In this document: positions 10,914 to 60,984 of the stretch, piece after piece
Numbering within the stretch: the first letter of the stretch is position 1
Layout: each line of letters starts with the position of its first letter
NCBI RefSeq assembly: GCF_009905215.1
Contig: NZ_CP047593.1
Span: 2,980,900 to 3,044,899 of the forward strand
Source: Tichowtungia aerotolerans
GTDB taxonomy: Bacteria > Verrucomicrobiota > Kiritimatiellia > Kiritimatiellales > Tichowtungiaceae
DNA length: 64,000 nt
Direction of reading: 5' to 3'
The notes under the pieces: model-generated
What the model saw: only the letters and a program-made list of their open reading frames with translations
The model's database searches: none
Told to the model about the DNA's origin: nothing
Made by a program: the position numbers and the translations under genes

Positions 10914-11262
10914 GTGAGCGATTATAAGGATTTGGAGGTTTGGAGTCGGGCGGTTGATGTTGTAACAAACATTTATCTGCTCACGACTGAGTTTCCGGAA
11001 TCTGAAAAAGTTTGGAATCACTAATCAGGTGCGACGTGCTGCGGTGAGTATCCCTTCAAATATTGCCGAAGGAAGTGCTCGTCACCATTCAAAGGATTTT
11101 ATTCATTTCCTTCGAATCGCCGATGGATCAGCCGCCGAGCTTGAAACTCAATTGATTATTAGCGAAAAGCTCAACTTTGCTTCTGATAGTCAGCACCTCC
11201 AAAATGAAATAATTATTATTCGCCGTATGTTGGCAGCGTTAATTAAATCTTTAGGAAGGTAG
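10914..11262 (+). pseudogene. Four-helix-bundle (S23/IVP) protein, frameshifted
   Basis: Reading from GTG 10914 gives V-S-D-Y-K-D-L-E-V-W-S-R-A..., the S23 N-terminus, then a stop at 11022. The rest (R-R-A-A-V-S-I-P-S-N-I-A-E-G onward to 11262) is open in another frame from about 11010. Removing one A from the AAAAA run at 11005-11009 would restore E-S-E-K-F-G-I-T-N-Q-V-R-R, the family sequence. S23-like proteins are ~115-residue helical bundles first found in 23S rRNA intervening sequences; their role outside rRNA is unknown. GTTTGGAG-type words lie upstream and CTCCAAAC-type words downstream. It may be a decayed gene or a sequence error in the A-run. Confidence 0.8.
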
Positions 11263-11266
11263 AAAT

Positions 11267-12283
11267 ATGGAAATCGATCCTCAAACCTCAAACAGCAAAC
11301 TCCAAACTGACGGTATCTCCAAGGATGCCAAAATTTATGTCGCAGGCCATCTCGGCCTTGTCGGAGGAGGCATCTGGCGCGCCTTTGAGCGCCACGGCTA
11401 CAACAACCTGATTGGACGGTCTATTGATGAGGTCAATCTGATTAATCAGCAGGAGGTTGAAGAGTTTTTTGCATCTGAGAAGCCGGAATTTGTGGTGCTG
11501 GTCGCCGCCAAGGTCGGTGGTATTCATGCCAACGACACATACCGCGGACAGTTCATCTACGAAAACATGATGATTGAGATGAATGTGATTCATGCAGCTA
11601 AAGAGCATGGCGTAAAAAAACTGCTGTTTCTCGGATCAAGCTGCATTTATCCCAAGCTGGCTCCCCAGCCGTTGAAAGAAGAGTCTCTTCTGACCGGTCC
11701 GCTTGAGCCGACGAATGAACCGTATGCAATTGCAAAAATTGCCGGGATTCGTTTGTGCGATGCCTATAACCGTCAGTATGGCACCAACTTTATCTCAGCG
11801 ATGCCAACCAATATGTATGGACCTGGAGATAATTATCATCCGGAAAATTCTCATGTGCTTCCGGCGTTGATTCGTCGCTTCCACGAAGCCAAAGAGAGCG
11901 GCGCGGATAAAGTGGTCTGCTGGGGAACCGGATCGCCGCTGCGTGAGTTTCTATACAGTGATGATCTGGCTGAGGCCTGTGTGTTTCTGGTCGAGAATGC
12001 CAATTACGAAGATATGGCGTTTACTGATGAATCCGGCACGGTTCAATCGCACATAAACATTGGTTCCGGCAAGGAAGTCACCATTAAAGAGTTGGCCGAG
12101 ACCGTCAAGGACGTCGTCGGGTTCGAAGGTGATTTGGAATGGGATGCTTCAAAACCTGACGGAACACCTCGCAAGCTGATGGATTCCTCTCGCATTAATG
12201 CCCTGGGCTGGCAACCGCAGGTTGAACTGCGCGAAGGGATCGCACGGGCATATCAGGATTTTCTGACTCGCTACGGTAAATAA
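11267..12283 (+). CDS. fcl: GDP-L-fucose synthase
   Basis: A 338-residue epimerase/reductase (GDP-fucose synthase, WcaG) that turns GDP-4-keto-6-deoxymannose into GDP-L-fucose with NADPH. Motifs: [16 protein letters not shown] (near residue 23; the usual GxxGxxG), [16 protein letters not shown] (active site), [10 protein letters not shown] (Y-x3-K), and [28 protein letters not shown], which is characteristic. The first ~20 residues ([10 protein letters not shown]...) are an extension made by the CTCCAAAC word repeat, upstream of the normal N-terminus; the true family start would be near KIYVAGH. AGGAAGG precedes the ATG. It pairs with gmd. Confidence 0.95.
11279..11313 (+). repeat. CTCAAAC/CTCCAAAC word repeat inside the 5' end of fcl
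   Basis: CCTCAAACCTCAAACAGC followed by AAACTCCAAACTG: tandem variants of a 6-8-base word. It is translated as N-S-K-L-Q-T. Reverse-orientation words (GTTTGGAG) occur at 10898-10908 and 10933-10945, on the other side of the S23 pseudogene. Confidence 0.7.
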
Positions 12284-13165: not shown

Positions 13166-14241
13166 AAAAAGTGATGGTTACAGGTGGAGCTGGCTTTATC
13201 GGCTCTGCAGTTTGCCGTTATTTGGTGAATGAAAAGGGCGTTCAGGTTTTAAATGTAGATAAGCTGACATATGCCGGTAATACGGAGTCACTGAGAGAGA
13301 TTGCAGATAATCCGCTTTATCGTTTTGCCCAGGTGGATATTTGTGATTGTGACGGAATTTCAGCACTGTTTTCGGATTTTCAACCGGATGCTGTGATGCA
13401 TTTGGCAGCTGAATCACATGTTGACCGATCAATCGACGGACCTTCTGCATTTATTGAAACGAATATTGTCGGCACTTACAATATGCTCGACTGTGCCCGG
13501 GCGTATTGGACTGGGCTTCCTGAAAAAACTTCAAACTCCAAACTTCAAACCCCAAACCGTTCTGACTTCCGCTTTCATCACATTTCGACGGATGAGGTGT
13601 ATGGATCGCTTGGTGAGACCGGGCTGTTTGAAGAAACCACCCCTTACGACCCGCGTTCACCGTATTCGGCAAGCAAAGCCTCCAGCGATCATCTGGTGAA
13701 GGCTTGGTATCATACTTATGGGTTGCCTGTTGTGGTTACAAATTGTTCAAACAACTACGGGCCGTACCATTTCCCGGAAAAGCTGATCCCGCTGGTTATC
13801 CTGAATGCGCTCGATGAAAAATCTCTTCCTATTTACGGAAAGGGCGACAATATTCGCGACTGGCTTTATGTTGAGGATCACGCAAGGGCTTTGGTGACTG
13901 TGGTAGAAAATGGGGCTCCCGGCGAAACCTATAATGTAGGCGGTCGCAATGAACGCACCAATCTGGATGTGGTGGAGACCATTTGTTTTGTGCTTGATGA
14001 ACTGAAGCCGCGTAGCAATGGTTCTTATGCTGACCTGATCACCTTTGTGAAAGATCGTCCCGGTCATGACATGCGCTATGCGATTGATGCGACCAAACTT
14101 GAAACGGAATTGGGGTGGAGAGCTCAGGAAAATTTTGACACCGGTATTCGCCGTACCATTCAGTGGTATCTGGATAATGATTGGTGGTGGGGCCCGCTGC
14201 GCGCGGAGCGCTACGCGGGAGAGCGACTTGGAAAGGCGTAG
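13162..14241 (+). CDS. rfbB: dTDP-glucose 4,6-dehydratase
   Basis: A 359-residue dehydratase making dTDP-4-keto-6-deoxyglucose. Motifs: [12 protein letters not shown] at the N-terminus, [25 protein letters not shown] (catalytic Asp-Glu), [12 protein letters not shown] (Y-x3-K), and [15 protein letters not shown]. Between CARAYW and FRFHHIS lies an insertion of about 12 residues ([11 protein letters not shown]) coded by the CTCCAAAC word repeat; other RfbB proteins are short here. Starts within rfbD (4-bp overlap). Next genes are an S23 gene, then rfbA. Confidence 0.95.
13528..13559 (+). repeat. TCAAACTCCAAAC word repeat inserted in rfbB
   Basis: ACTTCAAACTCCAAACTTC then AAACCCCAAACCG: five imperfect units of a 6-8-base word, read [11 protein letters not shown] in a surface loop. 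Same family as 11279-11313 and 17142-17166. Confidence 0.75.
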
Positions 14242-14256: not shown

Positions 14257-14318
14257 GTGTTAGGTTTTAGGTGTTAAGAGTTAAGACGTTGGCCTAAATC
14301 CTAAAACTAAATCGCAAA
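14257..14318 (+). repeat. GTTAGGTTTTAGGTGTTAAG word repeat, left of the intact S23 gene
   Basis: Non-coding. First half carries TTAGGTTTTAGGTG and TTAAGAGTTAAG, second half the opposite orientation (CCTAAATCCTAAAACT), so the segment can fold on itself. The same words recur after the S23 gene and around the next one. Confidence 0.75.
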
Positions 14319-14324
14319 GCGAAC

Positions 14325-14678
14325 ATGTATCAATCGTATGAAAAATTAGAGGTCTGGCAAAAAGCCGTCGCCTTAAGCGCTAGAATTTATGAGTTGTTGC
14401 GCGATTGCAGAGACTATGGGTTTAAAGATCAGGTATGCAGAGCTTCGGTTTCAATTGCTTCGAATATTGCGGAAGGAATGGAGCGGGAATCAAAAAAAGA
14501 AACAGTTCATTTTTTGCATATAGCCAAAGGTTCTTGTGCGGAAGTTCGAACTCAGGTTCTAATTGCATCAAAAATTAATTACATCAGTGCGGATGATTTT
14601 GAGGTTGTGAAAAATGAGGCAGAATCCATTTCGCGTATGTTGCACGGATTAGTTAAGGCGCTCTGCGACAAAAGTTAG
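14325..14678 (+). CDS. Four-helix-bundle protein, S23/IVP family, intact
   Basis: A 117-residue protein opening M-Y-Q-S-Y-E-K-L-E-V-W-Q-K-A, with DYGFKDQVCRASVSIASNIA and [16 protein letters not shown], the core of the S23 (23S rRNA intervening-sequence protein) family. Such proteins are small helical bundles that form pentamers in related structures; function outside rRNA is not established. It is very similar at the DNA level to the broken gene at 15799-16150, so one is probably a recent copy of the other. Both flanks are TTAGGTGTTAAG/CTTAACACCTAA words. It sits between rfbB and rfbA with no metabolic link to them, suggesting a passenger cassette. Confidence 0.85.
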   Translation: MYQSYEKLEVWQKAVALSARIYELLRDCRDYGFKDQVCRASVSIASNIAEGMERESKKETVHFLHIAKGSCAEVRTQVLIASKINYISADDFEVVKNEAESISRMLHGLVKALCDKS

Positions 14679-14795
14679 GAGTTATGTTTTATGTGTTAAG
14701 GATGAGTCTCTAAAACTTGAACACCTAAAACTTAAAACCATCCCCCTAGCACCTAAAACTTAATTCGTAACGCTTAACACTTGAATAAAATCGGA
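14679..14795 (+). repeat. CCTAAAACTTAACACC word repeat, right of the intact S23 gene
   Basis: Non-coding. Contains GTTATGTTTTATGTGTTAAGG and then CTAAAACTTGAACACC, CCTAAAACTTAAAACC, ACCTAAAACTTAA and CGCTTAACACTTG: several imperfect copies in both orientations, able to form long imperfect hairpins. Confidence 0.75.
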
Positions 14796-15686: not shown

Positions 15687-15790
15687 GATCCAAGTTTTAA
15701 GTGTTAGGTGGGATACGTGTTAAAGTTCAGTGCCATGTGTTATGTGGATGACCTAAAACTTAACACGTTATTTCTAACACCTGAGACGAA
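15687..15790 (+). repeat. TTTTAAGTGTTAGGTG / CACCTAAAACTTAACAC words, left of the second S23 copy
   Basis: Non-coding. CAAGTTTTAAGTGTTAGGTG near its start and GACCTAAAACTTAACACG plus TTTCTAACACCTGAG near its end are inverted versions of one another and can form an imperfect ~15-bp stem. Matching words close the cassette at 16139-16163. Confidence 0.75.
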
Positions 15791-15798
15791 AAGCGGTC

Positions 15799-16150
15799 AT
15801 GTATCAGTCCTATGAAAATTTAGAGGTTTGGCAAAAGTCTGTCGAACTGAGTGTGGCGATCTATAAGCTTATGCAGGAGTGCCGGGACTATGGGTTCAAA
15901 GATCAGATTTGCCGGGCCGCGGTTTCGGTCCCCAAATATTGCGGAAGGGTTGGAGCGCGAGTCCAAGAAGGAAATAATTCATTTTTTACATATAGCCAAA
16001 GGCTCTTGTGCGGAAATGCGTACGCAATTACTCATCGCCTTTAAAATTAATTATATAACTGATGGTGATTTTAATGTACTAAAGGGTGATGCTGAAGCGA
16101 TATCGCGCATGCTTCACGGTTTAATCAAATCGATGTCTCCTAAAACTTAA
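15799..16150 (+). pseudogene. Four-helix-bundle (S23/IVP) protein, frameshifted copy
   Basis: Starts M-Y-Q-S-Y-E-N-L-E-V-W-Q-K-S, near-identical to the intact copy, and reads to A-A-V-S-V-P at about 15932. There the frame is lost: the expected S-N-I-A-E-G continues two bases out of phase, and the family sequence then runs to 16150. Comparison with the intact copy indicates a 2-base deletion in the serine codon near 15933. The two frames together cover the normal ~117 residues. The last codons (S-P-K-T-stop) come from the flanking CCTAAAACTTAA word. Probably a decaying duplicate. Confidence 0.8.
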
Positions 16151-16165
16151 CACCTAAAACTGATC

Positions 16166-32499: not shown

Positions 32500-32817
32500 T
32501 TAACAGTCCGAGAAAGGTCCACTTCTTTATTATGGCTCTTCGTGAAATTTAATGGAGATGGTAGTAAAGCTAGAACAATTTTTGACAGGATAACAGGATT
32601 TCGAGGATGTCTTTCAATGAGGGGATGGGATCTGGTCGATCGGCATACTTTACCCACAAAAAGCTTGTTCCTGTTGTATTTCGGCTCTCCCGAAATTAAT
32701 TTTCGGGATAAAAATGGAAGCGGATGAACCGGATATTAATCCTGATGATCCTGTTATCCTGTCAAAAACTTTCTATTCCATGAAAATCTAAGAGGAAGCT
32801 TTGTTTTCTTTAATCAC
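32500..32817. other. 318-bp gene-free gap holding the inverted-repeat element
   Basis: I see no supported coding frame here. The gap is mostly filled by the 190-bp element at 32579-32768. A second small inverted repeat, CTCCCGAAATTAATTTTCGGGA (arms CCCGAAA / TTTCGGG), lies inside at about 32686-32707. The last ~50 bp (AT-rich) lead into the next gene. Confidence 0.6.
32579..32768. mobile_element. MITE-like element with 21-bp perfect terminal inverted repeats
   Basis: TTTTTGACAGGATAACAGG(AT) at 32579-32599 is exactly complementary to (AT)CCTGTTATCCTGTCAAAAA at 32748-32768. The 190-bp unit encodes nothing convincing. Inside the right end the word GATCCTG/GATATTAATCCTG repeats. This fits a non-autonomous element or a large RNA/DNA hairpin; no transposase was seen and no clear target duplication stands out. 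Confidence 0.7.
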
Positions 32818-33972
32818 ATGAAGTATACGCACAGTTGGTCTTTTTTCTTTGGTTTAGGTGAGCGGGTAATGGCTCTTCCCGGATGGTGGAAGCCGCGCTT
32901 ATACATTGTTTCCAAAGGTTGGAAACAACGCTGGCAGGATTCTTCTTTTTATCCAGCGTTTAAGTTGCGTGCAAAATGTTTCAAGTTGGTTGTCCGGTTC
33001 TTGGCGATGTGTGGACTTTTTCGGGTCCGCACTTCTTTGCGCGGGGAACCCCCCTTCCGTTCCGGGCGTCGTGTTGTTCTGTTGCGTGGAGCCGAAGGGC
33101 TTTCTCAGAAGCTGATTGCCCGCGTAGTGGATGAACCGAGCTCTAAAACGGTTGCATACATAAAGTATGCGGAAGATGGGCTCGCTCGGGATAAGGTGGA
33201 GGCCGAGCATCGCATTTTAACGGAGTTGGAAAAACAGAGCACATCGCTCGCTCCCTTTGTGCTCAATTATGGATCTTTTGGAAATGGCATCGCGTTGGAG
33301 GTCTCTGCGGTTGAGGGGGAGATGCGGGAGGCGAAGCTTCCCGTATCAGAAATCAGAAATCAGATGTCAGAGGTCAGAGAGTATCTTGAACAGCTGCACG
33401 TATCTGATGAGCTGTTTGAGATTGACGAGCATCCGGCGGTTGTTCGCCTTCGCGAACAACTGCTGAGTTATACATCTGACAATCCTAAAGCCCAAAGCCT
33501 AATGCCTAATGCCTCGCAGTTCTCTCAATGGCTTGCTCCATTGAGAGAACGCGCATGGCCTGTCGTGATTCAGCATGGTGATTTTACACCGTGGAACATA
33601 ATCCAGAGGACAGAGGCCGGAGGACAGAAGTCAGAGGATTACAGTCCCCCGATAACAGATTTTCAGATAACGGATAACGGAGCTACGCTCCTTTGCGCGA
33701 TTGATTGGGAAGAAGGGGTTTTGGATGGTTCCCCCCATTTTGATTTCATCTATTTTATTCTTCAGTCGGGGTGTTTGATTCACGGATGGGAGCCTCAGCG
33801 TACGGTTGACTATCTGCTACCTTTGTTGGAGAGCGAAGGTTTGTCTGAAAAGGAGTCGGTCTCTCTGATTAAGCTTTGTGCCTTGGAGGCCTATTTCCGA
33901 TTCGGTGCAGAATCAGGCAATCCAAAGCTGCAGGATTTCAGAAAACAGGTTTTTTCCTATGCTTCCCAATAA
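32818..33972 (+). CDS. Aminoglycoside-phosphotransferase-fold protein with repeat insertions
   Basis: A 384-residue protein with the kinase-like fold of aminoglycoside/choline phosphotransferases. Catalytic loop VVIQHGDFTPWNIIQ near residue 243 and metal-binding CAIDWEEGVLDGSPHFDF near residue 300 are intact. The substrate is unknown; in polysaccharide loci such proteins may phosphorylate a sugar. Four stretches are made of DNA word repeats: S-E-I-R-N-Q-M-S-E-V-R-E (residue ~177), N-P-K-A-Q-S-L-M-P-N (~222), R-T-E-A-G-G-Q-K-S-E-D (~264) and I-T-D-F-Q-I-T-D-N-G (~281). A 13-bp-stem hairpin (33519-33550) and a 9-bp one (33439-33460) also lie in frame. One palindrome copy is read V-S-K-G-W-K. 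Confidence 0.7.
   Translation: MKYTHSWSFFFGLGERVMALPGWWKPRLYIVSKGWKQRWQDSSFYPAFKLRAKCFKLVVRFLAMCGLFRVRTSLRGEPPFRSGRRVVLLRGAEGLSQKLIARVVDEPSSKTVAYIKYAEDGLARDKVEAEHRILTELEKQSTSLAPFVLNYGSFGNGIALEVSAVEGEMREAKLPVSEIRNQMSEVREYLEQLHVSDELFEIDEHPAVVRLREQLLSYTSDNPKAQSLMPNASQFSQWLAPLRERAWPVVIQHGDFTPWNIIQRTEAGGQKSEDYSPPITDFQITDNGATLLCAIDWEEGVLDGSPHFDFIYFILQSGCLIHGWEPQRTVDYLLPLLESEGLSEKESVSLIKLCALEAYFRFGAESGNPKLQDFRKQVFSYASQ
32909..32925 (+). repeat. Palindrome TTTCCAA-N3-TTGGAAA
   Basis: Perfect copy with extended arms (GTTTCCAA-AGG-TTGGAAAC), read V-S-K-G-W-K near the N-terminus of the phosphotransferase-like protein. Confidence 0.85.
33345..33381 (+). repeat. ATCAGAA/GTCAGAG word repeat in coding sequence
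   Basis: Five units of an ATCAGAA / GTCAGAG word in tandem, read S-E-I-R-N-Q-M-S-E-V-R-E. Absent from the conserved core of the fold, so probably a surface insertion. Confidence 0.75.
33439..33550 (+). repeat. Two in-frame hairpins and AAAGCCCAAAGCCTAATGCC words
   Basis: GTTGTTCGC-CTTC-GCGAACAAC (33439-33460, 9-bp stem). CCTAAAGCCCAAAGCC then TAATGCCTAATGCC (33484-33513). GTTCTCTCAATGG-CTTGCT-CCATTGAGAGAAC (33519-33550, perfect 13-bp stem, 6-base loop). All are translated within the phosphotransferase-like gene, just before its catalytic HGDF. Confidence 0.8.
33603..33680 (+). repeat. GAGGACAGAGGCCGGAGGAC and GATAACAGATTTTCAGATAAC words
   Basis: Two adjacent word families within 80 bp between the catalytic loop and the metal-binding DWE motif. 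The first (AGAGGACAGA) also occurs in the O-antigen-ligase-like gene at 43220-43245. Confidence 0.7.
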
Positions 33973-38738: not shown

Positions 38739-41384
38739 ATGAGAGCAAAACGATTAATAAACGGACTGTTGAATGCAGTGCCGCTGGTTCTCTTCAGCGG
38801 CATGCTGGTTGCGCTGTTATTGGCCCGGATCACCTTGGGACTGACACTTCCCTGGTGGGGGGCATGGGCGCTTGGCATTTTTTGGGGAGTCATCGTTTTT
38901 GACCACCTGATTCGTGTCGAGCTGTTTAAGCAGATCGGTGGGTTTGTTGTGACTTTCATTGCGGTGCTGATTCTCATCGGGGCCCTGGCGCCGAAGGAAA
39001 CGGTTGCCCGCTCCCCGAGGATGGCTGCAGATCAGGTGGTGCGGCAGATGGAGGCCACCTGGAATGCAGTATATCACGGCAATATTTTTAAAAACTACAG
39101 CCTGAAACAGCAGCTGATCGATTACGGAACCGGTCTCGGCAATCTCGATCCGTTTCGGCATGGAAAAATGATTCTGTTTGCCCTGCTCGGGTTTGCGCTG
39201 GGGGTTGTGTATCTCTTTCCGATTGAGCCATTTCGCCGATGGCGAAATGCGTTTGGGAGTGGGGGAGTAGAGGAGTCTTGGAGTCGTGGAGAAACGAAGT
39301 CTAACACCCATACACCCATACATCCATACGCCCATACTTTTCAGCGAAGTGGAAGCGCTGCGTACATATGCCGTTGCGCGACGCTTTTCCTCGCCGGTGC
39401 GGTTTTTGCCCTTCAGGTCGAGCTTCTGCAGGTGCTCTCTCCGACGCGATTGGTGACGGGGCTCAGTCTGCTCGACAGCTGTCTGGGACTGCTGGCCGGC
39501 CTTCTCCTGTTTGTGCCGGTGCACCTCTTTTACGTATTTCTTGCGGAACGCCGGAAGAAAGGCTCCCCGCGGTTCAATGTGCTTGGGGTCGGGGTTGATG
39601 CCGTGAATATGGGAGACTGCCTGAAATTATTTGAGGAGATTATTAGCTGGAAGCCGACAGCTGACAGCATGCAGCTTAAAAGGGCTGTTGGCTGTGAACT
39701 GAACGCTGAAAGCTCTTACAGCAATCCTTCTCAGGATGAAGCCGGGACGTTGGACATGTCCGGAAGGCGGAAGACAGAAAACAGCGAGCTGTCGTCAGTG
39801 ACCAGGCATCTGTCATCCGGGCGGGATGCCCGTCTTCCCGCGATGACCGCGGCCCTCGGTGTGGCCGGCATTGTGGAGGCGCGCCGCAACCAGAAGCTGC
39901 AGCGGATTCTGAATGAATCGGTGCTGAATACGCCGGACGGCATGCCGCTTGTCTGGCTTGGCAAGCTCTTCGGTTACCGGAGTATTGAGCGGGTTTATGG
40001 TCCCGATCTGCTCCGCGATGCCTGTGCCTATGGCGAGGCCCGGGGCTGGCGCCACTTCTTTTATGGGGCCGCACCCGGCATTGTCGAGAAGCTGAAGATC
40101 GCGCTCGAGCAGAAGCATCCTGCCATTCGGGTGTCCGGCATCTACTGCCCGCCATTCCGTGACCTGACGCCTGAAGAAGAGACCGAAGTGGTCGATATGG
40201 TGAATTCTTCGGGAACCGATATCTTCTGGATCGGCATCTCGACGCCGAAGCAGCTCTATTTTATGGACCGGATACGCAGCCGGCTGACCTGTAAGATCAT
40301 CTGTCCGGTGGGGTATGCGTTTGATGTGAATGCCGGAGTGGAGGAAGATGCGCCGGACTGGGCTAAATATTCCGGGTTCCAGTGGCTCCACCGGGCAATC
40401 AAGCAGCCGCGGCTCTGGAAGAGATACCTTCCGGACAATCCCCGGTTCGTGTGGGAGGTGATTCTGCAGGTGCTGCATTTAAAGCGGTATCCGATGCTGA
40501 TGCACGAGCGCATTGTTGAGCCGGAGACCGATGCCGAGGGCTATCCGCGCTTTCCTGCGGGCGTGGTGTCGCTTTCGGCCATGTCACTTGAAGGGGCCCG
40601 TGATCGGGTACTCAACTGGGTCAGGACCGGGCAGCGGCACTATGTGAACATTTGCACTGCGGATACCATGGTCCAGTGCTTCGACCGGCCGGATATGGCA
40701 AAAATTGTGAAAAATGCGGGGATGGCGACGACGGACGGCATGCCGCTGGTCTGGCTTGCGCATCACTATGGGTTTAAAGATGCAACGCGGGTTTATGGGC
40801 CGGACCTGATGCTTGAACTGTGCCGGGTCACTTCAGATCCGGCCGGTTTTCGGTGTTATGATTTAGGTGTTAAGCGGGACGAGCATGCCCGTGAAAGCCT
40901 AAAACCCAATCACCTAACACCTAACACTGAAAAGAAATGCATCTCGCATTTTTTCTACGGCGCCACCGACGAGGTGCTCGAGCAGTTGAAGGCCAACCTG
41001 CTCAAAAAGTTTCCGGATCTGAAGGTCGCGGGCATGTATTCTCCGCCGTTCCGGCCGCTCACAGATGCGGAAAAGGATGAGGTGGCCGAAATGATTAATG
41101 CGTCCGGTGCGGATATCGTCTGGTGCGGACTGGGCACTCCGAAACAGGATTACTGGGTGGCGGAGTTCCGGCCGCGCCTGAATTGCGCTGCTATTCTGGC
41201 GGTGGGGGCCGCCTTCAACTTTCATGCGGGCCATGTTCGTCAGGCTCCCCGCTGGATGATGTGCGGCGGGCTGGAGTGGTTTTTCCGCCTGTGTACGGAG
41301 CCCAAGCGTCTCTGGCGGCGGTATCTCATCGGCAACCCGCGTTTTATCATGTTGACCTGGCGGCAGTTTTTAAGCCGCAGTTAA
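38739..41384 (+). CDS. VanZ-like domain fused to two WecG/TagA/CpsF glycosyltransferase domains
   Basis: An 881-residue protein. Residues 1-~265: about six membrane segments with GKMILFALLGFALGVVY and FALQVELLQVLSPTRLVTGLSLLDSCLG, a VanZ-like pattern. Residues ~275-590 and ~605-881: two GT26 domains, each with the TPDGMPLVWLG-like motif (near 400 and 665), VYGPDLL/M, HFFYGA and G(T)PKQ (STPKQLYF; GTPKQDYW). GT26 enzymes add N-acetylmannosamine(uronate) to lipid-linked GlcNAc. Domain 1 has a ~60-residue insertion (39655-39840) and domain 2 a ~25-residue one (40863-40924), each absent from the other domain and made of repeat words; a third lies in the VanZ part. Confidence 0.85.
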   Translation: MRAKRLINGLLNAVPLVLFSGMLVALLLARITLGLTLPWWGAWALGIFWGVIVFDHLIRVELFKQIGGFVVTFIAVLILIGALAPKETVARSPRMAADQVVRQMEATWNAVYHGNIFKNYSLKQQLIDYGTGLGNLDPFRHGKMILFALLGFALGVVYLFPIEPFRRWRNAFGSGGVEESWSRGETKSNTHTPIHPYAHTFQRSGSAAYICRCATLFLAGAVFALQVELLQVLSPTRLVTGLSLLDSCLGLLAGLLLFVPVHLFYVFLAERRKKGSPRFNVLGVGVDAVNMGDCLKLFEEIISWKPTADSMQLKRAVGCELNAESSYSNPSQDEAGTLDMSGRRKTENSELSSVTRHLSSGRDARLPAMTAALGVAGIVEARRNQKLQRILNESVLNTPDGMPLVWLGKLFGYRSIERVYGPDLLRDACAYGEARGWRHFFYGAAPGIVEKLKIALEQKHPAIRVSGIYCPPFRDLTPEEETEVVDMVNSSGTDIFWIGISTPKQLYFMDRIRSRLTCKIICPVGYAFDVNAGVEEDAPDWAKYSGFQWLHRAIKQPRLWKRYLPDNPRFVWEVILQVLHLKRYPMLMHERIVEPETDAEGYPRFPAGVVSLSAMSLEGARDRVLNWVRTGQRHYVNICTADTMVQCFDRPDMAKIVKNAGMATTDGMPLVWLAHHYGFKDATRVYGPDLMLELCRVTSDPAGFRCYDLGVKRDEHARESLKPNHLTPNTEKKCISHFFYGATDEVLEQLKANLLKKFPDLKVAGMYSPPFRPLTDAEKDEVAEMINASGADIVWCGLGTPKQDYWVAEFRPRLNCAAILAVGAAFNFHAGHVRQAPRWMMCGGLEWFFRLCTEPKRLWRRYLIGNPRFIMLTWRQFLSRS
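39229..39345 (+). repeat. Hairpin plus GGGAGTGGGGGAGT and CCCATACACCCATACATCC words in the VanZ part
   Basis: CATTTCGCC-GAT-GGCGAAATG (39229-39249, perfect 9-bp stem), then GGGAGTGGGGGAGTAGAGGAG words and CACCCATACACCCATAC words to 39345. Translated as a G/S/H/T/P-rich loop between two membrane segments. Confidence 0.75.
39655..39840 (+). repeat. Repeat-derived insertion in the first TagA domain
   Basis: Contains CAGCTGACAGC pairing imperfectly with GCTGTTGGCTG, GCTGAAAGCTC, GGACATGTCC, GGAAGACAGAAAACAG, CATCTGTCATC and CGGGC-GGGAT-GCCCG. Aligning with the second TagA domain, the segment between E-E-I-I-S-W and the conserved stretch before D-G-M-P has no counterpart. Confidence 0.75.
40863..40924 (+). 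repeat. TTAGGTGTTA...TAACACCTAA hairpin inserted in the second TagA domain
   Basis: Perfect 10-bp arms 40863-40872 and 40915-40924; inside are CGGG/CCCG and CCTAAAACCCAATCACC. Same word family as the flanks of the S23 genes 25 kb away. Read as ...D-L-G-V-K-R-D..., ...S-L-K-P-N-H-L-T-P-N-T; the first TagA domain lacks it. Confidence 0.85.
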
Positions 41385-48018: not shown

Positions 48019-49751
48019 ACCGCCGGATTAATTTTACGTTGTTGATCGTTTTTGCCGCAGCCTCGCTCTGGTGCGCGGACGGCCTGATGCGTAAAAACGA
48101 TCAGGCCGCCATCCTTGCCGGTGCGGTGGACCTTGCCCGCGGGCAGATTCAGCCGTGGAGCGCCTATTACCAGTTCGATAAAACCTATGTCCTGTACGGC
48201 GTGGCCGGAGCCATCCTGAAGGCCGTTCCCGGAGCTGATCCGGTCACGGCGGCCAACATCGGACTGGCGCTAATCTTCTGGACCTCGCTCGCGGTCTTTA
48301 TCGCCCGCAGTCGGGAGCGCCTTTCTCCTGCGGTTCTTCTTTGTGTGCTGGCATCGCCTGCTGTTTTGTTTAATACGTCTTATGTAAACAGTTCTGTGCT
48401 GTCATCAGCTTTTTTGCTGCTTTGCGGGGCTTTCGTTTTTCGAACGGATCGATTGAGCAGCTGGCTTGCTGCGCTGTTTTATTTTCTTGCGGTCGGTTCA
48501 CGTTCGGATGTGATTCTTCTGCTTCCGTTGCTGCTTTGGCTGGGCACGCCGATTCCTGAGTCTGGAAATTTCAGGGAGTGGTTTTCCAACCTTTGGAAAA
48601 CAGACGCCCGGACTTCTTTGCCGTTTTCCAACCTGTGGAAACTGACGGTTGCCGGAATCGGCGCTCTTATTCTCGGCCCGATATTCGCTGGGGGCGCGGG
48701 TATGGCGCTCGATCCGTTTTTCAATTGGAAGATGGTTGCCGGCTATACGGTGTTCGGCTTCGGTGCCGCCGGAATGCTCTGGGGCGTACAGTTGGTTGGT
48801 CTGGGAAGGCTGGTTGTTAAAAACCGGGCTGTTTGGCCTGTTCTTTATGGTTCAGCGGGGCTCTTGGCCTTGCTGATTCCGGTGCTGTTTTTTCTGCCGC
48901 AACTGCATGCGCCACGCTATTTCTGGCGTGGGTGCGAAGCTGTTTTATTGCTGTCAGTGACCGGTCGCCTGCCGCAACTTAATCGGCGATGGGTGGCAAT
49001 CTTCGCATTAGCAGCGGTTCTGCCGTTGTTGGTTGGGGTTCGTCTGCCGCAGCTGAACCAGCCGCAACTCACGGTAACGTCGCCGACATGTTTCCCAAGT
49101 GGAGACGGGTTTTATCCCATGGGTGCCTATGGGTCGTTTCTCTGGCGTTTGCATCACGCGGACGTTGAGTCGATTGACCATAATCAGCGAGTGTGGACTG
49201 CAGCGCGGCAGACTGTGTTCCAACCCTTGGAAAACGGGACGGTTCCGGTGCTGTATACGCCAATGTCGGGCTATCTGCTGCTCAGCGCGTCACTGCGGGG
49301 GCAGATCGCGGTGCGGGCTTCGTTTGAAGAGCTGCCTGCGATCGGGTTCTATGTCGATAGCCGCAGCCTGATGCGTGACGATCCAAAGAATCCTGTCGGT
49401 GCATTGAACCGGATTTTAGATATGCCTGTGGAATTTGTGTCACCAGAGTCAGACGGCATCGGAATTCTGCGGGTAGGAACGGGCCGTCGAGAATGGGGCG
49501 CACAGACGAAGCTGCTGAGCCGGTGTTTTAACGGAAATGAGTACCTTGTTTATCCTGCTGATCAGGTACGTCCGGGTGATCGAAATTTTATTTTCTTTTC
49601 TAAAAAGGATTTTACCGGTGCCCGGTATGACTCTCTTTCGGGATTGTATTGGTCGGGAAAATATCCTGCTGCTGTGCGGACTGATATCTTTTTTGCTCAA
49701 GCGGTTTTACCTTCGTGGATGTCTCTTCAGGCCTTCAAGGGGACTGATTAA
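48015..49751 (+). CDS. Large membrane protein, possible GT-C glycosyltransferase
   Basis: A 578-residue protein I cannot assign firmly. About ten hydrophobic segments occupy residues 1-~345, and a ~230-residue soluble C-terminal region follows. An early acidic stretch (R-K-N-D-Q-A-A-I-L-A-G) after the first membrane helix fits the first-loop acidic residue of GT-C enzymes. Three palindrome copies lie inside: two in the loop near residues 190-210, read S-N-L-W-K both times, and one near residue 402 read F-Q-P-L-E-N. It starts 4 bp inside the epimerase gene and is the last gene before exosortase. Confidence 0.5.
   Translation: MNRRINFTLLIVFAAASLWCADGLMRKNDQAAILAGAVDLARGQIQPWSAYYQFDKTYVLYGVAGAILKAVPGADPVTAANIGLALIFWTSLAVFIARSRERLSPAVLLCVLASPAVLFNTSYVNSSVLSSAFLLLCGAFVFRTDRLSSWLAALFYFLAVGSRSDVILLLPLLLWLGTPIPESGNFREWFSNLWKTDARTSLPFSNLWKLTVAGIGALILGPIFAGGAGMALDPFFNWKMVAGYTVFGFGAAGMLWGVQLVGLGRLVVKNRAVWPVLYGSAGLLALLIPVLFFLPQLHAPRYFWRGCEAVLLLSVTGRLPQLNRRWVAIFALAAVLPLLVGVRLPQLNQPQLTVTSPTCFPSGDGFYPMGAYGSFLWRLHHADVESIDHNQRVWTAARQTVFQPLENGTVPVLYTPMSGYLLLSASLRGQIAVRASFEELPAIGFYVDSRSLMRDDPKNPVGALNRILDMPVEFVSPESDGIGILRVGTGRREWGAQTKLLSRCFNGNEYLVYPADQVRPGDRNFIFFSKKDFTGARYDSLSGLYWSGKYPAAVRTDIFFAQAVLPSWMSLQAFKGTD
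48583..48641 (+). repeat. Palindrome TTTCCAA-N3-TTGGAAA, two copies
   Basis: 48583-48599 (perfect, arms extend to GTTTTCCAA-CCT-TTGGAAAAC) and 48625-48641 (TTTCCAA-CCT-GTGGAAA). Both are read F-S-N-L-W-K, in a loop between membrane helices. Confidence 0.85.
49217..49233 (+). repeat. Palindrome TTTCCAA-N3-TTGGAAA
   Basis: GTTCCAA-CCC-TTGGAAA, one mismatch, read V-F-Q-P-L-E-N. Confidence 0.8.
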
Positions 49752-58215: not shown

Positions 58216-58866
58216 TTACCGATTGAACTTCTGTAAAAAGAAATTAGTCGCCAGTTCCTTGGCAATCGTGGAGGTCAGTCCGTGACCCGCGACAATTTGA
58301 GTTTCCGGAGGAAGAGTCTCTGTCAGTTTTTTCAGGGACTCAGTCAACGTACGCGCGTCTCCGCCGGGAAGGTCGGTGCGCCCGCATGATCCTTTAAAAA
58401 GCGTGTCTCCGGTAAAGCAAACACCCGCGTCCTGAAACCAGTAGCAGACACCGCCGGGCGTGTGGCCGGGAGTTTCCAAACATTGGAAACTTAGGTCTGC
58501 AATGTTCCAAACCCTGGAATATTCGAGATCATTTTTTCCAAAGATTGGAAACTCTGCATCGGGGCGGAGCGGCACAGGGTAGTACGGCAGAATCTGGTTG
58601 CTGGGGCCAAAGGCCCATTCCTGATCGGCTGGATGCAGGTAGACTGGCGCAGGGTGATTTTTATGCAGTTCGGCGAGGGCGCTGATGTGGTCGGCGTGGC
58701 CGTGCGTGAGCAGATATGCGGCGGTTTGTAAGTTGTTTGTTTTGAGAAAGTTTTCTATTTCTTTTGCGTCTTTCCCCGGGTCGAGGATCAGGGCTTTGCG
58801 TGCTTTTCCCCATACAACAGCACAATTGACTTCGTATGAGCCTACAGTGATTAATTCGAGATTCAT
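58216..58866 (-). CDS. Metallo-beta-lactamase-fold hydrolase (glyoxalase II-like)
   Basis: A 216-residue MBL hydrolase. Zinc ligands: THGHADHI near residue 54 (H-x-H-x-D-H), GHTPGG near 136, TGDTLF near 153 and the final GHG near 196. Shorter than true glyoxalase II, so substrate uncertain. Between the usual strand 'A-E-F' and the ligand T-P-G-H-T-P-G-G the gene holds three palindrome copies within 79 bp, read F-P-I-F-G-K, S-R-V-W-N and F-Q-C-L-E-T, one in each codon phase. Start overlaps the stop of the 24-residue peptide encoded just ahead of it. Confidence 0.92.
   Translation of the reverse strand: MNLELITVGSYEVNCAVVWGKARKALILDPGKDAKEIENFLKTNNLQTAAYLLTHGHADHISALAELHKNHPAPVYLHPADQEWAFGPSNQILPYYPVPLRPDAEFPIFGKNDLEYSRVWNIADLSFQCLETPGHTPGGVCYWFQDAGVCFTGDTLFKGSCGRTDLPGGDARTLTESLKKLTETLPPETQIVAGHGLTSTIAKELATNFFLQKFNR
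58473..58551. repeat. Palindrome TTTCCAA-N3-TTGGAAA, three copies in 79 bp
   Basis: 58473-58489 (perfect, spacer ACA), 58504-58520 (GTTCCAA-ACC-CTGGAAT, degenerate) and 58535-58551 (perfect, spacer AGA). Centre-to-centre 31 bp each, about three helical turns. All within the minus-strand metallo-hydrolase gene. Confidence 0.88.
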
Positions 58867-60855: not shown

Positions 60856-60872
60856 TTTCCAAACCTTGGAAA
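60856..60872. repeat. Palindrome TTTCCAA-N3-TTGGAAA, intergenic
   Basis: Perfect copy with arms extended to TTTTCCAA-ACC-TTGGAAAA, two bases after pckG's stop and seven before the terminator stem. Confidence 0.9.
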
Positions 60873-60878
60873 ATACGA

Positions 60879-60909
60879 AAGCGCTCCGGTTCGCCGGAGC
60901 GCTTTTTTT
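60879..60909 (+). terminator. Rho-independent terminator after pckG
   Basis: AAGCGCTCCGG-TTCG-CCGGAGCGCTT: perfect 11-bp stem with UUCG tetraloop (60879-60904), followed by TTTTTG. Confidence 0.95.
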
Positions 60910-60938
60910 GTGTTTCTTTGCAATCATTGGAACGGTTT

Positions 60939-60984
60939 CTTCCAAGGTTTGGAAATTGACCCTTGGGGCGGGGTAGTCTACTCT
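60939..60984 (+). promoter_or_regulatory. Palindrome copy abutting a candidate purA promoter
   Basis: CTTCCAA-GGT-TTGGAAA (60939-60955, one mismatch) is followed immediately by TTGACC (60956-60961), 17 bp, TACTCT (60979-60984). If this is the purA promoter, the palindrome touches its -35 element. Confidence 0.45.

Follow-up and report, generated by a model that had tools for sequence, protein, structure and literature searches.

Period-7 and period-8 word inserts in a VanZ-GT26-GT26 fusion gene of Tichowtungia aerotolerans and their likeness to the flanks of S23 genes

The window analyzed here is a stretch of 64,000 nucleotides from Tichowtungia aerotolerans (contig NZ_CP047593.1, positions 2,980,900 to 3,044,899). 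The genome consists of one contig of 3.88 Mb, and its relatives carry the names Kiritimatiellales or Pontiellaceae. The window contains a stop-free ORF encoding one protein of 881 aa, with an N-terminal helical VanZ-like part followed by two GT26 (WecG/TagA/CpsF) domains (Table 1). The Pfam family PF03808 was matched with an E-value of 8e-102 and 338.5 bits, against a cut-off of 27.4, in three stretches, domain 2 being split by its insert. The match to VanZ (PF04892) is weak (E 0.004, 18.1 bits, under the cut-off of 30.1), although the position and the predicted helices of this part agree with VanZ despite the low score. Genes for polysaccharide synthesis adjoin the fusion gene: an epimerase, GT4 glycosyltransferases, a sugar transferase and a Wzy_C protein. 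Within the fusion gene, an Rfam search gave nothing close to the gathering score and a profile search found no S23 (PF05635) match. A DNA search of the whole genome found no near-identical copy of the gene or of its inserts.

Table 1. Features of the window discussed in the text (positions are those of the window).
Feature	Position	Strand	Basis or remarks
Heptad array AAACTTC/AAACTCC in rmlB	13525..13558	+	lag-7 array; alignment to PDB 1bxk, 1g1a
S23 gene, TTAGGTG-family words on both sides	14257..14763	+	PF05635 at G000 2995239-2995547; flank complementarity p 0.005 (L071)
S23 gene, apparently frameshifted	15690..16160	+	PF05635 split over two frames, 15814-16120 (G000 2996713-2997019)
Three heptad arrays in APH-fold phosphotransferase ORF	33344-33379, 33484-33515, 33603-33681	+	within 33344..33681
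VanZ-like / GT26 / GT26 fusion	38739..41384	+	ORF, Pfam, orthologous fusions
Insert 1, loop of VanZ part	about 39237..39350 (about residues 167-204)	+	two octamer arrays
Insert 1, octamer array GGAGTCGT	39255-39291	+	
Insert 1, octamer array ACACCCAT	39304-39337	+	
Insert 2, GT26 domain 1	39645..39842 (residues 303-368)	+	between helix FEEII and strand MTAALGVAG
Insert 3, GT26 domain 2	40824..40946 (residues 696-736)	+	between helix YGPDLMLELC and strand HFFYG

The initial annotation regarded a tandem pair of GT26 domains fused to VanZ as unusual. This was not borne out for the order of the domains, which is widespread in Kiritimatiellales: orthologues of like layout were found among congeners, among Pontiellaceae and further away within the phylum. 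In one congener (G008; L141, C1 17000-24000) the gene stops after domain 1, domain 2 is absent and the next polysaccharide gene follows directly. In a Pontiellaceae genome (G014, C2) an S23 gene (411021-411269) lies directly upstream of the VanZ-GT26-GT26 gene (411515-413860). Comparison with the residues named for TagA (PMC6493773) gave a divided answer on the catalytic residues of the two domains. Counterparts of Asp65, Arg83 and Gln167, read off the 7mpk alignment, are kept in domain 1 (D400, R418 and Q505) and in domain 2 (D666, R684 and Q803), and arginines of the C-terminal tail are present in both domains in these alignments, without one-by-one mapping. Thr37 and Asn39 are not kept, their places being taken by A and G in MTAALGVAG of domain 1 (an extrapolated alignment) and by I and T in NICTAD of domain 2 (a weakly aligned stretch). 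Judging from the aligned residues, this loss would touch the substrate and not the fold.

Alignment to orthologues revealed three in-frame inserts, located in the VanZ linker, domain 1 and domain 2. The proposal that each GT26 domain holds an insert lacking in the other was confirmed, and both insertions then described are real. The third, in the VanZ part, had been overlooked, and the insert of domain 2 has 41 aa instead of the 25 or so residues first assigned to it (40863-40924). Insert 1 is absent from Pontiellaceae orthologues, where the linker has 22 aa, and the VanZ site carries three unrelated inserts in three congeners, the words of G008 and G004 differing from those of the window. Insert 2 is composed of decayed heptads, a conserved core PSQDEAGTLDM and a tail LSSGRDARLPA; its 66 aa stand against some 6 at the matching place of the sister domain. 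At this position orthologues have 34-115 aa except L035, which has only 9, and the cultured Pontiellaceae isolates B12219 and B1224 are among those whose orthologues contain the insert. Insert 3, with a TTAGGTG 5' arm and a CCTAACA 3' arm (arm complementarity p 0.007, fold z -2.3), exceeds the 9 aa found in homologues, counted to the conserved His. AlphaFold, run with 13 sequences, gave pLDDT values below 50 at residues 167-204, 307-353 and 703-732, all three flanked by elements of secondary structure; apart from these, a long stretch below 50 was seen only in the interdomain region 561-594. Because the mean pLDDT is 64, the model is taken as a guide only, and in this low-confidence model all three inserts are predicted to be unstructured loops. 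Two of the checks suggested at the outset came out in favor of insertion: the inserts sit in low-confidence loops, and the empty loop is seen in orthologues and in the sister domain.

At the DNA level, lag autocorrelation, expressed as z against dinucleotide shuffles, reached 7.7 at lag 8 in the VanZ insert, 6.1 at lag 7 in the domain-1 insert and 4.1 at lag 7 in the domain-2 insert. The largest values in 202 control windows of 120 bp, taken from conserved coding parts of the same genes, were 2.2 at lag 7 and 3.1 at lag 8. The repeats in the three inserts are not due to chance, and each insert consists at least partly of period-7 or period-8 words. Most orthologue inserts have the same periodicity with other words, L042 and L048 showing little period signal, and the first half is richer in G than the second in 15 of 17 inserts. 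Fold z against shuffles ranged from -4.7 to -0.2, with better folding at -4.7, -3.3 and -2.3, and complementarity of the arms is weak or absent in several inserts. Since the folding energies were mixed, word period and shared words were used as tests. Of the earlier description of the insertions as hairpins and word repeats, the word repeats hold in all three inserts. A pattern of constant and variable positions inside each word was seen by eye only. The domain-2 insert of L026 and the VanZ insert of L054 are of another make, with units of about 20 bp, TTGAACG and small hairpins; this TTGAACG type (peptide LND..LNE..LNA) was found in orthologous genes of two genomes, but not at the same site in both.

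The domain-1 insert contains ESSYSNPSQDEAGTLDM, which has close counterparts in four Pontiellaceae (L027, L028, L030 and L032). The core PSQDE[TA]G.. is common to the insert and these four, and the tail SSGxxxxLPAMT to most orthologues. A search for the PSQDETG core as a dispersed element, covering sampled DNA of about 1.3 Mb and the fetched loci, gave convincing matches in orthologues only, and the core is therefore treated as a conserved peptide. The domain-1 loop mixes conserved peptide with word arrays. Peptide segments shared by orthologues across families, with unrelated DNA, had been named in advance as evidence against repeat insertion, and this was found in part, as the core and tail, in the domain-1 insert. 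The sister domain had also been taken as proof that repeats entered in frame; its empty loop and the kept frame stand, but for domain 1 the proof is weaker than claimed, because the insert holds a peptide core shared with Pontiellaceae.

The loop of domain 2, YGPDLxxxxC-FFYG, is short in most cases: over 15 homologous domains, among them domain 1 of the window protein, have 10 residues there. In nine domains it has 20-80 residues, domain 2 of the window protein being one of the nine. The words in the occupied loops vary by lineage, with TTAGGTG in the window, AGAGGTC in both G004 copies, CATCCAA in L049, CCCCATG in L040 and CCAACAAC in L048; the shortest occupied loop, that of L050 (20 residues), is without clear words. 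Edge residues AAT.. and ..EKKC are common to occupied loops, so occupancy may be partly inherited while the words turn over. On a tree of the conserved parts, occupied orthologues stand at three places (L024; L025 with L054; L026), but support is weak at key forks and no number of independent gains is claimed. This one GT26 loop thereby keeps a natural record, with no insert in many domains and differing words in others.

In the two G004 copies (L025 and L054) the word family has stayed the same, with drift in copy number and sequence. Their domain-2 inserts differ at 7 first, 4 second and 6 third codon positions, with 3 synonymous to 12 nonsynonymous changes against 109 to 29 in the conserved parts (Fisher p 9e-6). 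In this one pair, where it could be tested, the domain-2 insert evolves like a neutral spacer, with relaxed codon evolution. No in-frame stop occurs in 19 inserts, the other two frames holding 42 and 53 stop trinucleotides; this is a matter of consistency and not a test, because the ORFs were chosen as open, and it says no more than that stops are present in the other frames.

Genes of the S23 family (PF05635, 23S_rRNA_IVP) were found in 35 of the 40 genomes searched, mostly several per genome. Two of the three in the window (10926-11235 and 15814-16120) match the profile in two frames each, as if frameshifted, and the word arm on the right of the first of these genes, CTCAAACCTCAAACAGCAAACTCCAAACT (11267-11310), seems to give the next ORF its N-terminal codons. 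The words around the last S23 gene in Table 1 are of the TTAAGTG / CCTAACA type. In the whole window there are exactly four occurrences of TTAGGTGTTA/TAACACCTAA, two of them in the domain-2 insert and two beside S23 genes. Flanks of S23 genes are complementary (p <= 0.05) at 14 of 19 testable loci, with words that differ by locus (binomial p 6e-15 if the loci are independent, some being related). Pooled, fifteen inserts have 141 9-mers in common with S23 flanks, where shuffles gave 53 +/- 10, and sharing amounts to 8.9 per 100 nt compared with 3.3 in control coding windows. It is significant for the domain-2 insert, rmlB (p 0.007), APH2 (the middle array, p 0.003), L029, L027 and L036 VanZ; in the window protein, neither the VanZ insert nor the domain-1 insert reaches significance. 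The shared 9-mers support the earlier statement that the domain-2 words belong to the family around S23 genes. An IVS in the 23S rRNA of this genome was ruled out, as each of the two 23S genes fits the Rfam model over its full length. A link to reverse transcriptase found no support, the single RVT_1 match in the genome being far from the window.

In 1.264 Mb of genome, 18 arrays at lags 7/8 were detected, of which 16 lie within open frames 120 aa or more in length; lags 5, 6 and 9-13 together gave 15 in the same DNA (p 5e-5 for equal lags). A scan of 200 kb of E. coli gave no arrays at lags 7/8, and one array in the control genome (L114) was false, arising from masked (N) sequence. The window holds 7 of the 18 arrays in 5% of the DNA (p 2e-5), a biased figure because it was picked for such repeats. 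Compared with solved RmlB (PDB 1bxk, 1g1a), the loop that holds the rmlB array is extended by about 9 aa. The array in a sialate-acetylesterase-like protein (L086 15312-15343) encodes LRVSSFEFQVS and a solved homologue aligns there without a gap; not every array is therefore an insertion, and an array can replace native sequence. No insertion is claimed for the array of a methylase (L098), since it falls outside the part aligned to PDB. Dispersed inverted repeats TTTCCAA..TTGGAAA, perhaps a REP-like family, are present in the window at 2520-2998, 48621-49237, 58470-58554 and 60856-60955, and a 30-nt inverted repeat (TTTTTGACAGGATAACAGGAT...) with a loop of 130 nt at 32579-32768.

In-frame invasion of proteins by small repeats is best known in Rickettsia and has been reported in Wolbachia, and the biology of S23/IVS genes has been open for decades. 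The closest precedents are the Rickettsia palindromic elements, the heptamers of the Coxiella IVS and the heptads of the Nostoc trnL P6b stem. Rickettsia palindromic elements are small palindromic repeats, tolerated in frame in conserved proteins and also intergenic (PMC2229807). The window inserts resemble them in being in frame in a conserved protein and absent in homologues. Unlike those elements, which measure 105-146 bp and form recognizable families, they consist of degenerate 7-8 bp words that vary between species and are linked to S23; no family with many similar copies per genome was seen, there being no second near-identical copy and the words being variable. In the Coxiella IVS, tandem heptamers (GACAGAT, in variable copy number) lie beside the S23 ORF and the ends form a stem (PMC4990558). 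Complementary ends, though weak or absent in several inserts, are a feature in common with the 23S rRNA IVS that carry an S23 ORF in Leptospira and Coxiella, but here the S23 genes lie between protein genes and the protein inserts have no S23 ORF. The P6b element of the Nostoc tRNA-Leu intron has complementary heptad arms, and at this one site one word class was repeatedly replaced by another (PMC4476775); that is a structured intron RNA with two word classes, while our case concerns protein-coding loops and many words. In Beggiatoaceae, direct repeats of the 7-bp word TAACTGA are abundant and in some cases overlap ORFs (PMC4679880), but they are one fixed word, mostly intergenic and mostly at ORF ends, unlike the many words found here inside domains. 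In Nematomorpha mitochondria, coding genes contain inverted repeats and still function (PMC6649704); the two arms of those repeats code for conserved protein, while the arms described here are extra residues. A literature search of open-licence papers found no description of a link between in-gene word inserts and S23.

The best reading, which we consider reasonably probable, is that word hairpins of the S23/IVS type, without the S23 gene, entered tolerant loops and then underwent fast word turnover. The inserts would be remnants of small elements whose two arms, usually a G-rich first and a C-rich second arm, consist of degenerate words of 7 or 8 bp and are of the same kind as those bracketing S23 genes. 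Such elements would enter surface loops of the VanZ-GT26-GT26 protein where added residues do no harm, and only frame-keeping copies would survive. The inserts would be translated as disordered spacers, both GT26 domains would remain functional, and quick turnover would leave related species with different words in one loop. Mobility, an S23-linked origin, translation and enzyme activity are what we infer. The initial annotation spoke of proof; in-frame repeats in a conserved gene are indeed present, but this does not extend to mobility, as neither a target-site duplication nor an excised copy nor an event of transposition came to light. Among the genomes searched there was no filled/empty strain pair differing by one insert, and no identical copy in two places. 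The association of S23 genes with heptads could also reflect two kinds of repeats co-located in the same permissive places.

The main and serious rival, which we rate as possible but rather unlikely, is local replication slippage with hairpin template switching in unconstrained loops, involving no mobile element, the likeness to S23 flanks being due to mutational bias. The differing words between species, the drift of copy number and sequence within one word family in the G004 copies and the shared edge residues, by which occupancy may be inherited, all agree with it, as does the repeated replacement of heptad words at one site in the Nostoc P6b stem (PMC4476775). However, slippage alone does not select periods 7 and 8, and coding DNA should favor 3n. 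Slippage is also at odds with the exact 9-mers that inserts have in common with S23 flanks located elsewhere or belonging to different species, and with complementary arms around most testable S23 genes. Quite unlikely, in our view, is that the inserts are ordinary species-specific disordered linkers under protein selection, the DNA repeats being incidental: the conserved core and tail in domain 1 and the in-frame state of every insert would fit, but a DNA period of 7 or 8 yields no short peptide repeat, the domain-2 insert has no excess of synonymous change and the same words occur in S23 flanks, which are largely noncoding. It is most improbable that the mRNA treats the hairpins as IVS, which would be cut out or bypassed to give a protein without inserts. 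RNase III does cut IVS stems in 23S rRNA (PMC4990558), and some inserts fold better than shuffles, but such a cut without religation would destroy the mRNA; that all 19 inserts are stop-free and in frame also speaks against it, as consistency only given the choice of open ORFs.

Returning to word hairpins of the S23 type, a bolder proposal, which we hold to be decidedly doubtful, is that the S23 four-helix protein is part of a system for writing new, degenerate words of 7-8 bp into permissive sites, with the G-rich strand inward from both sides. If true, a word-writing S23 system would be a local diversifier unrelated to transposases, each lineage having its own word in the same loop. On the preferred reading, small repeats have invaded proteins in frame in an unrelated phylum too, and the phenomenon becomes tied to S23/IVS genes. 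The origin of the heptad words and the role of S23 become testable through comparison of the GT26 loop in close strains. The results suggest that small, selfish-looking repeats may repeatedly enter working genes without breaking them.
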